From Calothrix sp. MO_192.B10 (lineage in GTDB: Bacteria; Cyanobacteriota; Cyanobacteriia; Cyanobacteriales; Nostocaceae), in the NCBI GenBank assembly GCA_030065055.1, contig JASJDS010000048.1, forward strand, positions 1-36,040: a stretch of DNA of 36,040 bases, in the 5' to 3' direction. Under the pieces are notes generated by a model. That model saw nothing but the letters and a program-made list of their open reading frames with translations. It ran no database searches and had not been told where the DNA came from. Shown here one piece after another: positions 17,664 to 36,032 of the stretch. The first letter of the stretch is position 1, and every line of letters begins with the position of its first letter. The position numbers and the translations under genes are program-made.

Positions 17664-19829
17664 ATGACAACTTTTTCCCGTCTTGCACCCTTTATCCAAG
17701 AATATATTTACAACCATAATTGGACGGAATTAAGACCAGTTCAAATAGCTGCTTGTGAAGTCATTTTTGACACAGATGCTCACTTGTTAGTAGCTGCGGG
17801 TACGGCGGCTGGTAAAACAGAAGCAGCGTTTTTACCAGTTGTCACCCAATTATATGAAAATCCTCCTCAGACTATTGGCGCGTTGTACATTGGTCCTATT
17901 AAAGCATTAATAAATGACCAATTTGAGCGGCTGAATTATTTACTCAAAGAAGCAGATATTCCCGTATGGCATTGGCATGGTGATGTTTCTCAAAGTCGGA
18001 AAAAACAGCTTTTGAAAAAACCCCAAGGTATTTTACAAATTACCCCAGAATCTTTAGAAAGTTTACTGATTAATAAACATCAGGAACTCATGGGTTTATT
18101 TGGTGATTTACGGTTTGTGATAATTGATGAAATTCATGCCTTTATGGGTTCGGAAAGAGGGTGTCAAATTCTTTGTCAATTACAGCGTTTAGCAAATATA
18201 ACTAAAGTCCAACATCGCCGCATTGGTTTATCTGCAACTCTGGGAGACTATTCCTTAGCTGAAGAATGGTTAAGTTCTGGTACTAATCAATCTGTGATTA
18301 CCCCCAAAATTGATGGAGGTAAACGTGCGATAAAATTAGCTTTAGAACACTTTTTTATTCCTGAAGAACTTGATATATCAGATATAAATGACTACGAGCA
18401 ATATATTTTTCACTTAAGTAAATCACGTAAATGTCTTATATTTGGCAACAATAAAACCCAGACGGAAACTATCATTTCATCCTTAAGAAAAATTGCCAAA
18501 ACATCAAGTTTACCAGATATTTATCACGTCCACCACGGCAGTATATCAGCTAGTTTACGTCAAGCTGCGGAAGATGCCATGCGTCAGCCCAATCAACCTG
18601 CGGTGACTGCTGCTACCCTTACCTTAGAAGTAGGTGTAGATATTGGTCATTTAGAAAGGGTAATTCAATTAGAATCTCCCCCCTCTGTAGCTAGTTTTCT
18701 CCAACGTTTAGGACGCACGGGACGCAGGGGGGAGGCTGCGGATATGCGTTTTGTGTGTGCAGAAAAAGAACCTTTACTGGAAGCACCACTTCCTGAGCAA
18801 ATTCCTTGGCAACTTTTACAATCCATTGCTATTATTCAACTCTATTTAGAAGAACGTTGGATTGAACCTATTCAACCACTAAAATATCCTTTAAGTCTGT
18901 TGTACCATCAGACAATGAGTATTTTAGCAGCAACAGAATCTATTTCCCCTGCTGCCCTGGCTAAACAGGTTTTAAGCCTGTCATCATTTGCCAATATTAC
19001 TAGGGAAGAGTTTAGGTTATTACTACGGTATTTAATTGATATTAATCATATCCAAAAAGCCGAAACTGGTAAATTAATTTTGGGTTTAGCTGGAGAGAAA
19101 ATAGTTAGTAAGTTCAAGTTTTATGCTGTATTTCCAGAAACTGTAGAATATATTGTCAAACAAGGAACTACGGAAATTGGCAGTATTATGATGCCTCCTC
19201 CTGTGGGTAATCAATTTGCTTTAGCAGGAAAAACTTGGGAAGTTACAGAAGTTGATTTCCGTAAAAAGACAATTTTAGTCAAACAAGTGGAAGGAAATGC
19301 CAGTATTTTTTGGCGGGGTGGTAGTGGTAATATTCATTCTAAAGTATTGCAGCGAATGCGGCAGATATTAATTGAGGATATGGAATATCCTTATTTACAA
19401 AAAAATGCGGTGAAACGCCTAGAAGATGCTCGTAAAATAGCACGAGATTATCAACTAAATCAACAGTATATTTTGCCTATTGGTAAAGATAAATCCTGTA
19501 TTTTACCTTGGATGGGTACGGTGGCTTTTCGCACCTTGGAAAGATTAATCAATAGCTTTTGCCGTGAGACTTTAGAAATTAAAAATATTCGCAGTGTTAA
19601 CCCTTACTATTTGATAATTAAGTTAAATAAAAATAAACTGAAACATATTTATCCGGAAATAATCTCTCTGTGCGAGCAAAGAATTACAGCAGATGATTTA
19701 CTCAGTGACGCTGAAGCGCCAGAAATGCAAAAATATGATAGGTTTATTCCTCATCCAATGTTACGCAAGGCGTTTATCTATGATTATTTAGATTTGGGGG
19801 AATTAAGACAAATAACTTCTGGCTGGTAA
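17664..19829 (+). CDS. Lhr-like DEAD/DEAH-box helicase
   Basis: Superfamily 2 helicase, 721 aa, that would use ATP to move along or unwind nucleic acid. An N-terminal Q-like element 'LRPVQIAA' precedes Walker A 'AAGTAAGKTE' (Lys51). Motif II is DEIH (155-158), motif III 'LSATLGD', motif V 'LTLEVGVDIG' and motif VI 'SFLQRLGRTGRRG'. DEIH and the Lhr-style motif VI suggest the Lhr/large-helicase-related group rather than RecQ or RecG. The C-terminal 330 residues contain an Lhr-core-like winged-helix/beta region ('GNQFALAGKTWEVTEVDF'). Lhr proteins are linked to DNA repair or RNA work, and such helicases also occur in defence loci. Here nothing else supports a defence role. Confidence 0.85.
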   Translation: MTTFSRLAPFIQEYIYNHNWTELRPVQIAACEVIFDTDAHLLVAAGTAAGKTEAAFLPVVTQLYENPPQTIGALYIGPIKALINDQFERLNYLLKEADIPVWHWHGDVSQSRKKQLLKKPQGILQITPESLESLLINKHQELMGLFGDLRFVIIDEIHAFMGSERGCQILCQLQRLANITKVQHRRIGLSATLGDYSLAEEWLSSGTNQSVITPKIDGGKRAIKLALEHFFIPEELDISDINDYEQYIFHLSKSRKCLIFGNNKTQTETIISSLRKIAKTSSLPDIYHVHHGSISASLRQAAEDAMRQPNQPAVTAATLTLEVGVDIGHLERVIQLESPPSVASFLQRLGRTGRRGEAADMRFVCAEKEPLLEAPLPEQIPWQLLQSIAIIQLYLEERWIEPIQPLKYPLSLLYHQTMSILAATESISPAALAKQVLSLSSFANITREEFRLLLRYLIDINHIQKAETGKLILGLAGEKIVSKFKFYAVFPETVEYIVKQGTTEIGSIMMPPPVGNQFALAGKTWEVTEVDFRKKTILVKQVEGNASIFWRGGSGNIHSKVLQRMRQILIEDMEYPYLQKNAVKRLEDARKIARDYQLNQQYILPIGKDKSCILPWMGTVAFRTLERLINSFCRETLEIKNIRSVNPYYLIIKLNKNKLKHIYPEIISLCEQRITADDLLSDAEAPEMQKYDRFIPHPMLRKAFIYDYLDLGELRQITSGW

Positions 19830-19942
19830 AGATGCTATTTCAGGGTAGATTTGATATGAGCGATCGCTTGGTATAATACCAACATCAATTATCTTGATAA
19901 TTCCCCCTTTATTGCCTTTATCATAGATGCACTTCAATCAAT

Positions 19943-20227
19943 TTAGAAGGGGAATTTCCATGGAAATGGAAAATTTTTGGGTAAAATAGTTCCTGCTCCT
20001 CCTTCTTCCCCTACAGCTGCAGTTGTTATGGGATTAGTATCTCCCCCTTCTTCTCCTACAGCTTGAGTTGTTGCTATGGGATTGGTATCTCCTCCCTCTT
20101 CTCCTACAGCTTGAGTTGTTACATCAGTACCTCCTGAAACTTTTTCTGCTTCCTCGTTGCTCAGTTGTGTCATTTCCCAAGCAAGTGATTCTAATTCAGT
20201 AATATCTAAGGAAAATGGGTGTTTCAT
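19943..20227 (-). CDS. Graspetide (omega-ester RiPP) precursor peptide with three TTxxxxEE cores
   Basis: 94-aa ribosomal peptide precursor. Residues 1-33 look like a leader: 'MKHPFSLDITELESLAWEM', then 'LSNEEAEKVSGG', ending in a Gly-Gly site (32-33) of the kind cut by C39-type peptidase transporters. Three core repeats follow: TTQAVGEE (37-44), TTQAVGEE (53-60) and TTAAVGEE (68-75), joined by GGDTNPI linkers. TTxxxxEE is the motif of plesiocin-type (group 2) graspetides, in which an ATP-grasp ligase links Thr to Glu side chains through two esters per motif. A tail ending in NFPFPWKFPF follows. An AGGAGAT site lies before the ATG. No ATP-grasp ligase, protease or transporter gene is visible within the window, so its enzymes must lie elsewhere. 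Confidence 0.85.
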   Translation of the reverse strand: MKHPFSLDITELESLAWEMTQLSNEEAEKVSGGTDVTTQAVGEEGGDTNPIATTQAVGEEGGDTNPITTAAVGEEGGAGTILPKNFPFPWKFPF

Positions 20228-20586
20228 TTCAATCTCCTAGATTAGTCAGACGAAAATCAATATAAACCTCGTCTACCTTGAGAACCGTAGTTTTCTAACG
20301 TGACTTTGGGATTGCTTCCTTACGTCGCAATGACACATCTGAATAATTAGAAACTCCAGGTTTCAACATGGATGAGGCTCATATATATTGATTCTGTGTA
20401 TGAATTATGCACATTTGAATCAACCATTGACAATTCAATCATAAGGTAATATATATTTCATTTATAGATATTTTTCGGTAATATTAATTTCCTAAAACTG
20501 CAATAATTATTTCATTTTTAAGTTATTAATGGATTCATTCAAAACACAGAAATTTATCAAAAATAAGAAATTAATAAAAAAATAAT

Positions 20587-20759
20587 GCGTTGCTGAATCC
20601 TTACATGAAATGTAAAACATCAGGTATATTAAACTCTTTTTCTCTGCGCCTGGAGCGCCTCCCTTCGGGTTCGCCACTTTGCTTATGCCGGGGAACCCGT
20701 CCACCGCAAGTGGACTCACTGCGTGAGACAAATTCATATCTTACTTGATTCAGCAATGC
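20587..20759. repeat. MITE-like element with 13-bp terminal inverted repeats
   Basis: gcgttgctgaatc (20587-20599) and gattcagcaatgc (20747-20759) are inverted repeats with one mismatch. The 173-bp interior has no ORF but contains repeat modules (near 20685) found inverted near 123. The rest of the 20231-20890 gap is AT-rich with a short 'cgcagagaacgcagag' repeat near 20786. I see no further gene there. Confidence 0.65.
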
Positions 20760-20920
20760 CAGATAAATTATTCAAATAAATAAACCGCAGAGAACGCAGA
20801 GAACGCAGAGGAATGAGAAAGAGAGAGGAATTTTGCAGACTGATTCTTATCACGAGTATTTAGAGAGGATAACAATGTGATAGTTTTGTTATGATTATCT
20901 CTATATATTTCCAAGTCAGG

Positions 20921-21871
20921 ATGGAAAAGGCTTCAAATTTACTACTTAAACTAACACGGCGCTTGTTTACAGATACAGACGAGCAAGAAAAATTTATTCA
21001 TGCCTTAATTACTCCCCAACCTTTTCATCCCTGTATTCTTTGGTGCCAAGAAAAGCCACCAGAGAATCCTTTTATGGTGGCAGAATCTATTCCTTGGCAG
21101 CCAAATTTCATCGAACGTTTATCTTTACAAGAAAAACCAGGTAAACATCCCTTACACGAACAAGGTTATTTTTATTGTTTGGATTTTTCTTCGGTATTTG
21201 CGGCATCTACCTTACTTGCTATTAAGCAACCTATTAAGTACATTGTTGATATGTGTGCTGCCCCTGGTGGTAAAAGTATATTCGCATGGAAATTATTACA
21301 ACCGGATTTACTTATTGGCAATGAAGTAATTGGCAAACGTCTGGGAATGTTAATTGCTAATTTAAAGCGTTGTCATATCCAACCTGCTTTGGTAACTAAT
21401 AGAGATTCGAGTATTTTTGCTCAAGAAATACCATTATCTAGTAACTTAGTCATAGTTGATGCACCTTGTACTGGACAATCTTTACTAGCAAAAGGCGATA
21501 CAGCACCAGGTTGTTTTCATCCTAGTTCAATTAATAGAAGTGCTAACCGACAAAAACGAATTATTGCTAATTCTGCTCAAGTTGTTGCACCCCAAGGGTA
21601 TCTAGCTTATATGACTTGTGCCTATTCCCCAGAAGAAAATGAGCGAGTTTGTCAATGGTTTTTAAAACGCTTTCCTCAATTTAAGGCGGTGGAAGTTCCC
21701 CATTTACAACCCTATCAATCCCATCTAGCTACTATTCACTGTTATCGAATGTTTCCCCAGGATGGTTTAGGTGCAGGTTCATTTACTGCACTATTTCAAA
21801 ATACTGATGGTAGTGAAGCTAAGGAAATGAATTTTGATAATTTATCTAGTGTTTGGCGGAATAACATCTAG
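20921..21871 (+). CDS. RsmB/NOP2-like RNA (cytosine-5) methyltransferase
   Basis: Putative 5-methylcytosine RNA methyltransferase of the RsmB/NOP/Sun family, about 316 aa and shorter than RsmB (about 430) because the N-terminal NusB-like domain is missing. Numbered from ATG 20921: SAM motif I 'DMCAAPGGKS' (about 111-120), the release Cys183 in 'VDAPCTGQSLLAKG', and the nucleophile Cys233 in 'MTCAYSPEENE'. The catalytic residues are present, so it should methylate rRNA or tRNA; the target is unknown. I start at 20921 because MEKASNLLLKL looks like the family N terminus; an in-frame ATG at 20891 is possible. Its 3' end overlaps the convergent PPC gene by 30 bp. Confidence 0.85.
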   Translation: MEKASNLLLKLTRRLFTDTDEQEKFIHALITPQPFHPCILWCQEKPPENPFMVAESIPWQPNFIERLSLQEKPGKHPLHEQGYFYCLDFSSVFAASTLLAIKQPIKYIVDMCAAPGGKSIFAWKLLQPDLLIGNEVIGKRLGMLIANLKRCHIQPALVTNRDSSIFAQEIPLSSNLVIVDAPCTGQSLLAKGDTAPGCFHPSSINRSANRQKRIIANSAQVVAPQGYLAYMTCAYSPEENERVCQWFLKRFPQFKAVEVPHLQPYQSHLATIHCYRMFPQDGLGAGSFTALFQNTDGSEAKEMNFDNLSSVWRNNI

Positions 21872-27390: not shown

Positions 27391-28488
27391 TTAGGCTGCA
27401 ACGCATAATTTTGTATTCCGTTTAATGAGATGTACTTTTGATGGACTAAACTGTCCTAATCTGTGCCAATTGTGGTCATAAACTGAGATGTTTTTAGTTT
27501 TGGCTGTTTGGGTGTAACCACCAACCCATCCGATATAAACCTTTCCTGCTTTTTCGGCTTTGACCAAATCACCAGAACGAAAACCAAATGGGGTGACTGT
27601 TCCACCTTTTCGTTTTCTGTAATTTACTACATCTGAAACTGGGTTCTCAAAGTGAAGTTGGCGACGGAATACATTGGGACGAGCAATCACTCGGAACGGT
27701 GCTGATGTGACCGTAACTTCTCCCACCCAATGATGTCCACGAGTATTTGCAGTTTGAAATTTCTCAAATCGAACAAAACTACTTGCAGCCAACGCCACAC
27801 CATCATGAGCGTGAGTCTCAGGACTTTGTTTGGATTTATCTTTTTTATCTTTAGCCAAACCTAGGTGTTGTCTGAGTATTGAAGTTTGCCATCCTTGTTG
27901 TTTATTTGTTGGTGCAATTTTCTCCAACCATTGCAACATCATTTTTTGACCAACCATCACTGGGCTAAATCCCCTATCACCTCTAGCTTTGATGTATTCA
28001 TAGGTGATTTGAGTCACAGGAAACAGTTTTACCAATTCCTTGGTCACTCGCAATTCTATTTGTTTATTAGCTCGGATGCTAGGTGGTAATTTGTTTTGTT
28101 TTCTGTTGTCAAACCTTTTTTGGCGATGCGCTCTTTGGTGAAAAGGTAGCTTACGGTTTATGCGCCTACCTCGTCTAGCCCGCCGCAAAATTCGCCTGAC
28201 TGACATTTTTTTTGTCACATCAGAAAAAGGAAGAATCAAATGTGCCATAAACAAGGTGGACTTAGCAGATTGGACACCAACACCAGTAAACTTTTTACCT
28301 GGGTCTAATCCCAAAGCTATTGATTGAGTGTCACATCCAGATGGTTCTACTAATAGCTGAATCGAAAAAATATTGAGGTCATTGCCTACAATCTTGGCTT
28401 TACCTTCTTTTAGCCAACGCCTAGCACGACTAGGTTTTGTTGGCATGAGTGGCTTACCGTTCTTGTCTAATACTGGTACTCGTTGCAT
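27391..28488 (-). CDS. isrB: IsrB, RNA-guided RuvC nuclease lacking an HNH domain
   Basis: 365 aa. The N-terminal PLMP/RRXRR domain reads 'VPVLDKNGKPLMPTKPSRAR' then RWLKEGKAK. The split RuvC nuclease is present: RuvC-I Asp62 in 'IALGLDPGKKFTG', RuvC-II Glu164 in 'ITYEYIKARG' and RuvC-III Asp229 in 'THAHDGVALA'. Between I and II lies an Arg-rich bridge helix ('RRILRRARRGRRINRK'). Only about 60 residues separate RuvC-II from RuvC-III, and no CxxC/HNH motif lies there, so this is IsrB (about 350 aa) rather than IscB. IsrB proteins are guided by omega-RNA and nick the non-target DNA strand. All three acidic residues are intact, so it may be active. The start ATG at 28488 directly follows the omega-RNA region. 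Confidence 0.88.
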   Translation of the reverse strand: MQRVPVLDKNGKPLMPTKPSRARRWLKEGKAKIVGNDLNIFSIQLLVEPSGCDTQSIALGLDPGKKFTGVGVQSAKSTLFMAHLILPFSDVTKKMSVRRILRRARRGRRINRKLPFHQRAHRQKRFDNRKQNKLPPSIRANKQIELRVTKELVKLFPVTQITYEYIKARGDRGFSPVMVGQKMMLQWLEKIAPTNKQQGWQTSILRQHLGLAKDKKDKSKQSPETHAHDGVALAASSFVRFEKFQTANTRGHHWVGEVTVTSAPFRVIARPNVFRRQLHFENPVSDVVNYRKRKGGTVTPFGFRSGDLVKAEKAGKVYIGWVGGYTQTAKTKNISVYDHNWHRLGQFSPSKVHLIKRNTKLCVAA

Positions 28489-35697: not shown

Positions 35698-35933
35698 CTT
35701 GATGAGTTTCCTGATTATGAATTGATTGATTGGAATTTGGACAAACTTGAATTTTTTGTCTTGTATTTCCAAGTATGTTTGATAATTTCAATCAAAGGTT
35801 CAGGAAAATTTAGGACTTGGAAAACTCAGTTAAATTTAGGTTTGGAGGCGTTACTATTAAATAATTTTCTTACCAAACCTTTTCAAATATCTCCAAATAT
35901 CTACAAGAGAAATGTTGAGGTTTGAAGAGGTTG

Positions 35934-36032
35934 TTGACTAAAGCGTATGTCTCCCCAAAAGAAGCAGCAGAACATTATGGAGTCAGTATTACCACCCTTA
36001 AAAGATGGGATAAAGAAGCTAAATTGTGCTAA
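35934..36032 (+). pseudogene. N-terminal remnant of an IS607-type serine recombinase
   Basis: A TTG-initiated frame reads TKAYVSPKEAAEHYGVSITT then LKRWDKEAKLC and stops at TAA 36030-36032. This is the MerR-like HTH that opens IS607-family TnpA serine recombinases (and relatives), normally continued by a GKI...R...GQRRY stretch. A frameshift just before the stop would break it, since in another frame the sequence continues. The window ends 8 bp later, so it may be a partial element, truncated or frameshifted. Confidence 0.6.

Follow-up and report, generated by a model that had tools for sequence, protein, structure and literature searches.

We report that a small gene of Calothrix sp. MO_192.B10 encodes the precursor of a TTxxxxEE graspetide and is truly unlinked from the ligase of its family. 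The gene lies in the stretch of DNA analyzed here (the window: 36,040 bp, the entire contig C96), so that its neighbourhood is known only to the contig ends. Its identity as a graspetide precursor is firm, because genes of its family adjoin, and co-occur with, a clade of ATP-grasp ligases (hereafter A1) whose nearest solved enzyme is Protein Data Bank (PDB) entry 7drm. That it is unlinked follows from a sister strain, which carries the gene at the same site and has the ligase on another contig. We consider it probable that the gene is a functional precursor of a plesiocin-like peptide, matured by an A1 ligase encoded elsewhere. Judged from sequence, such maturation in trans appears well supported in the sister strain and likely in the window strain.

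The original prediction described a 94-residue open reading frame (ORF) with a leader ending in Gly-Gly and three TTxxxxEE cores, and this was confirmed at 19943-20227, on the minus strand; the plus-strand frame across the same interval is interrupted by five stops. The protein reads MKHPFSLDITELESLAWEMTQLSNEEAEKVSGG-TDV-TTQAVGEE-GGDTNPIA-TTQAVGEE-GGDTNPI-TTAAVGEE-GG-tail: the cores are split by GGDTNPI(A) linkers and the tail is rich in aromatic residues and proline (Table 1). TTxxxxEE is the core motif of group 2 (plesiocin-type) graspetides, and its three copies provide the repeated donor/acceptor motif of the class (Ser/Thr/Lys with Asp/Glu). Shuffling the protein 100,000 times never produced three TT....EE motifs, and among 1073 stop-to-stop ORFs of at least 20 residues in the window this is the sole one with any such motif. 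The protein has no Pfam match at E≤0.1. Its one NCBIfam match, to the CTB family of bacteriocins (NF038167), scores 12.2 bits, below the cut-off of 32, and so leaves it outside that family.

Table 1. Positions of the precursor gene, its parts, its neighbours and the other graspetide cluster of the genome (window coordinates unless a locus is named)
Feature	Position	Strand	Basis or remark
Graspetide precursor ORF, 94 aa	19943..20227	-	82% amino-acid identity to the sister-genome copy
Leader, residues 1-33, HPFxLxxxxLE-type N-terminus, Gly-Gly end	20129..20227	-	C39-type cleavage after GG predicted
Core 1, TTQAVGEE	20096..20119	-	Translation
Core 2, TTQAVGEE	20048..20071	-	Translation
Core 3, TTAAVGEE	20003..20026	-	Translation
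C-terminal tail, GGAGTILPKNFPFPWKFPF	19946..20002	-	Gapped differences from the sister's tail
Shine-Dalgarno-like AGGAG	20234..20238	-	Sequence; 37 nt directly upstream of the start codon identical in the sister
Dispersed genomic repeat	20263..20377	.	Begins ~36 nt before the start codon; occurs many times across the own genome
DEAD/Lhr-type helicase, flanking gene outside the system	17664..19829	+	Pfam scan
RsmB/F-type RNA methyltransferase, flanking gene outside the system	20891..21871	+	Pfam scan
Rosaritide-like cluster on contig C110	L003:3534-8798		Precursor, ligase, PpiC-like protein, HlyD-like protein, C39 exporter

To place the gene in its family, we used a sample of 388 genomes of the same order, drawn evenly from a larger group and including the own genome. 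A protein search found precursor matches in 44 of them (own genome included), which amount to 51 loci once hits within one gene or array are merged. The short relatives share a common pattern: M.HPF.L....LE, a Glu-rich stretch, Gly-Gly and then TTxAxGEEGG repeats. Across 13 aligned precursors, columns H3, P4, F5, L7, L12, G32 and G33 are invariant. The closest ligase-linked relative that we found is the precursor of cyanobacterium PCC 7702 (60-69% identity); plasmid records held no precursor homolog.

An ATP-grasp ORF of one kind was present in 16 of the 20 precursor neighbourhoods first read. We built the A1 profile from 15 of these ligases (299-312 residues, 57-71% identical to the first), all picked beside precursors, and searched the 388 genomes at E≤1e-60, mostly scoring the best six candidates per genome. 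An A1-clade ligase was found in 54 genomes: 37 of the 44 with a precursor versus 17 of the 344 others (Fisher p 1.7e-31, uncorrected for relatedness). With the 15 source genomes subtracted by hand, the proportion is 22 of 29 against the same 17 of 344. At the level of loci, 33 of 51 have a distinct A1 ligase of ~301 residues within 2559 bp, at a median distance of 252 bp (18 of 36 after the same subtraction); 10 are on a different contig from the ligase, and 8 are in a genome with no A1-clade match at this threshold. Among loci lacking an A1 ligase, those of genomes G118 and G293 adjoin an ATP-grasp from another clade, and at the G371 locus (C307) the ligase start is cut off by the contig end.

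The association extends beyond the order. Among 36 precursor loci found by scanning named genomes of several phyla, 29 had an ATP-grasp ORF matched by A1 (E≤1e-5). They include loci in Archangium, Paenibacillus, Metabacillus, Planctomycetota and Gastranaerophilales; to judge by eye, many have other leaders. Against the PDB, the A1 profile matches 7drm best (E 1.3e-40), followed by 5ig9, 5ig8, 7mgv, 7m4s and 9bou. The record names 7drm only as an "ATP-grasp domain-containing protein"; we take it to be PsnB, the plesiocin ligase (entries 7drm-7drp), and the others are presumably graspetide ligases too. This family-wide link to a clade with 7drm as its closest solved enzyme supports the plesiocin-type core of the original prediction. 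By itself, the family PF21068 is a poor marker: it matches 114 of the 388 genomes at E≤1e-5, yet missed A1 ligases, for example that of G244.

Several members of the wider family differ in build. Long relatives (L021, L022, L024, L027/L047, L028, L032, L033) have open frames of about 430-500 residues, which start with an HPF-type N-terminus, continue with some ten TTxAxGEEGG repeats (9 in L051, 11 in L047) and close with a C-terminal domain of very roughly 150-200 residues, which in the three proteins scanned gave at best a sub-threshold match to RTX calcium-binding repeats. At L047 and L051 an A1 ligase adjoins. These relatives resemble many-core graspetides joined to a larger domain that may be secreted. 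In three planctomycete TTxAxGEEGG proteins (L109, L120, L123), an RR-containing, Tat-like hydrophobic N-terminus precedes the cores by eye, which would suggest that the folded, modified protein is exported by the Tat route. In Symploca sp. SIO3C6 (L046:11073-11888 / L097:9474-10289), a PpiC-like ORF of 272 residues adjoins the A1-clade ligase, a pairing unique among the 31 neighbourhoods read, two of which are this same locus.

The evidence that the window precursor is unlinked comes from its own genus, represented in the sample by three genomes: the own genome (G000), Calothrix sp. MO_167.B12 (G388, the sister) and G368. The sister carries the precursor at the same site, on contig C23 (JASJCJ010000081.1): window 19859-20264 is 90.1% identical there in DNA, and the adjoining flanks are 96.3-96.4% identical. 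Its A1 ligase lies on another contig, C190 (31216-32115, E 3.2e-171; gene at L142:9211-10116, minus strand), adjoining a second precursor that begins MQHPFSLKISDLES. C190 is not a stray contig, because stretches of it to either side of the cluster have counterparts on contigs of the own genome (91-97% identity). In the sister's gene content, then, we find what the original prediction proposed, maturation in trans of one of several precursors: an orphan, and a ligase with a second precursor. The own genome does not show this arrangement. G368 has its own ligase-precursor pair on contig C9, and its helicase and methyltransferase matches lie about 20 nt apart with no precursor between them.

Comparison of the two copies of the gene reveals a pattern of kept leader and diversifying core, as read from small numbers in a single pair of sequences. 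The first 36 codons differ by one silent and zero amino-acid changes, whereas the rest differs by 13 replacement and 8 silent changes (proportions 0.10 and 0.20; Nei-Gojobori, gap columns excluded). All twelve ring-forming Thr and Glu residues are kept, and loop positions vary (Q>Y, V>I, A>E). Upstream of the 37 nt shared before the gene, ~120 nt differ (a dispersed repeat in the own genome, other sequence in the sister), after which the two are 82% alike.

Separation of precursor and ligase recurs in the order, as a minority state. Clean cases with the A1 ligase on another contig are G350 C76, G091 C10 (two tandem precursors) and G308 C1303. For the first two, about 10 kb read on each side held no ligase; the third is an entire contig of 18 kb, whose precursor sits about 3 kb inside one end. 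A single clear TTxxxxEEGG core is present in each of the orphans of G350 and G308. Five further other-contig loci (G350 C59, G178 C571, G178 C424, G302 C147, G285 C309), which sit on short contigs or at the end of a contig, were not counted as clean, nor was G305 C101, which has an adjacent ATP-grasp of another clade. We found no report of unlinked graspetide precursors in the literature searched, a search that the main subscription papers on graspetide groups lay outside of and that is no proof of novelty.

In the mechanism that we propose, the HPFxLxxxxLE leader would recruit an A1-clade ATP-grasp ligase encoded elsewhere in the chromosome, beside a second precursor; in the window strain, this ligase would probably lie between contigs C201 and C135, in sequence missing from the assembly. 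The ligase would join two Thr to two Glu in each core through side-chain esters, giving two nested rings per core and six esters in total, and a C39-type protease/exporter would cut the leader after Gly-Gly. The resulting hairpin peptide would be trivalent and could plausibly inhibit proteases. The three bicycles and six esters are predicted by analogy, and we infer the leader recognition, ring pattern, cleavage and activity.

Several observations weigh against this explanation. The cognate A1 ligase is not in the own assembly (330 contigs, 96.13% complete) by protein or DNA search, and neither is a second precursor: the further leaders of the MKHPFSLDIT type that had been anticipated did not appear in a protein search at E≤10 or in a DNA search for the exact pattern of MKHPF only. 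Ahead of the start codon, the sequence shared with the sister is just 37 nt long and then gives way to the repeat, so that a working promoter is not assured. Across the order, 17 of the 54 genomes with the ligase lack a precursor match, and 7 of the 44 with a precursor lack an A1-clade ligase; a PCAT-like ORF occurs in only 4 of 31 neighbourhoods read, and the exporter/protease is not assigned by neighbourhood. The chemistry of the window precursor is itself a prediction.

The ligase question turns on how the own genome is assembled. Searches with PF21068, one A1 ligase, the A1 profile and the DNA of the sister's ligase region yielded, beyond the ligase on contig C110 and two distant ATP-grasp-like matches, short dispersed repeats only. 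With the A1 profile (E≤10, all 27 candidates scored), C110 scored 5.3e-27 and the distant matches 0.001 and 0.004; the DNA search gave no ligase fragment (40 of 577 first-look candidates scored). In the sister and in G368 the ligase is preceded by the same flank (L048:1894-4504 with L142:6344-8736). In the own genome this flank is on C201 and stops 347 nt short of the contig end, and the far flank of the sister's cluster is on C135 and stops 210 nt short of the contig end. The far flank can be compared in the sister only, as the G368 contig stops earlier. The ligase locus of the genus thus coincides with an assembly break, and for this reason the absence of the ligase is unproven. The C201 end contains repeat-like sequence that recurs at other places in the own genome. 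A stretch of 143 nt at the C135 end (the end of L158) matches the window's right end (35840-35982) with 96.5% identity, and its translation resembles the start of a serine-recombinase gene, presumably of the IS607 type. This stretch may be the cause of the break. One candidate fragment of the missing cluster, an 87-nt stretch of C221 that perfectly matches sequence upstream of the sister's in-cluster precursor, was rejected: the contig end shows neither precursor nor ligase, and the stretch is taken as a shared repeat.

The same data could be explained if the precursor is a relict that outlived a ligase lost in this lineage, perhaps by an insertion-sequence-linked deletion at the C201/C135 junction, and gives no product. 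The missing A1-clade ligase and the recombinase-like C135 end speak for this, as do signs of loss elsewhere: partial A1-type ligase matches in G353, G280, G258, G120 and G166, which contig ends may have cut short, and in G099 a precursor match that contains a stop, next to a ligase remnant of 25 residues, which may reflect repeated decay of the system. However, the ORF, ribosome site and leader are intact, the first 36 codons carry zero amino-acid changes relative to the sister (one pairwise comparison with few substitutions, and so weak evidence of selection), and the two sides of the ligase locus are not joined but break off close to contig ends. A ligase within the C201-C135 gap is a simpler reading than an insertion with deletion, and we regard the relict as unlikely.

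Could the C110 ligase mature the window precursor instead? This 342-residue enzyme is the sole assembled graspetide ligase and the sole PF21068 match of the own genome at E≤10, and the C39 exporter of its cluster could also cut a Gly-Gly leader. The original prediction had hinged on a graspetide ligase somewhere in the genome; C110 supplies one, in a different cluster. A precursor of its own, distinct in leader and core, lies next to the enzyme, which is only 26-29% identical to A1 ligases; its PpiC-like partner and PCAT gene give the layout of group 21 (rosaritide), as PMC13097080 describes it. We therefore hold C110 to be a very unlikely source of the modification. Least probable of all, to the point of being nearly negligible, is that the window protein is an unmodified small repeat protein. 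Its identity as a natural-product precursor is read from sequence, and some relatives have the 430-500-residue frames with an extra domain described above; against this stand the strong co-occurrence with, and adjacency to, ATP-grasp ligases in the order and the ATP-grasp ORFs at 29 of 36 named-genome loci in several phyla. Maturation by an unlinked A1 ligase remains our preferred explanation.

The C110 cluster is a graspetide system in its own right. Its ligase scores 258 bits with TIGR04187 (cut-off 350) and is preceded by a 59-residue precursor that scores 25.9 bits with TIGR04497 (cut-off 32) and has the leader and core RTRIDDLSTIGVELSEADLRNVSGG...CTEPGMCDDE; the core, ...SCTEPGMCDDE, holds two Cys. 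Downstream of the ligase are a PpiC-like protein, a putative HlyD-like ORF and an ABC exporter containing a C39 domain. A ligase with a PpiC partner and a PCAT and an adjacent precursor is the group 21 layout in PMC13097080. This is true of C110's own precursor and does not apply to the window precursor.

The genes on either side of the precursor had been named as a helicase and an RNA methyltransferase, which the Pfam scan bears out. No graspetide ligase turned up on the contig, by PF21068 or by the A1 profile (both E≤10), as had been stated; the accompanying statement that there is no protease or exporter nearby holds for the 20 Pfam-scanned of the 69 window ORFs of at least 60 residues, among which no C39 peptidase or ABC exporter family was matched. 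According to PMC13097080, a DNA helicase is frequent beside group 10 graspetides; a functional link to the helicase here was rejected, since G368 carries the helicase-methyltransferase pair without the precursor. Dispersed repeats at 20263-20377 and about 20626-20761 have many copies in all three genus genomes. A 365-residue protein at 27391-28488 (minus strand) has an RRXRR domain (PF14239), which we take to be the N-terminal domain of IscB-type nucleases. Rfam gave no match at gathering score anywhere in the window.

Graspetides are usually found by searching beside the ligase. A conserved precursor that two species of a single genus keep at a distance from every assembled ligase, with the ligase located elsewhere in one of them, suggests that ligase-centred searches miss substrates; the apparent absence of an enzyme can also coincide with an assembly break. 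The kind of system is already known, and its arrangement is moderately unusual. Rosaritide (group 21) resembles it only through the C110 cluster, whose layout it shares, and not through the window precursor's system. With plesiocin it shares a single ATP-grasp ligase, 7drm being the best PDB match of the A1 clade; plesiocin has four cores versus three here, and the window precursor has a cyanobacterial HPFxLxxxxLE leader and is unlinked to its ligase. The cyanobacterial precursors with HPF leaders and TTxAxGEEGG cores (PCC 7702, Symploca and Calothrix loci) have the same leader type and core and belong to the same family, but an A1 ligase adjoins theirs. For the prochlorosins (ProcA/ProcM), PMC10783134 describes precursor genes that may lie dispersed across a cyanobacterial genome while one enzyme modifies their products. 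The likeness lies in these scattered precursors with one enzyme; the differences are lanthipeptide chemistry, Nif11-type leaders and tens of precursors versus two. It is a tentative and rather doubtful extension that the order runs its graspetides in the prochlorosin manner, with one A1 ligase serving several dispersed precursors of fixed leader and diversifying cores, so that orphans would be functional and belong to a combinatorial set that genome mining by cluster overlooks. With the present case it can be tested simply whether dispersed substrates are handled by a graspetide ligase as they are by ProcM.
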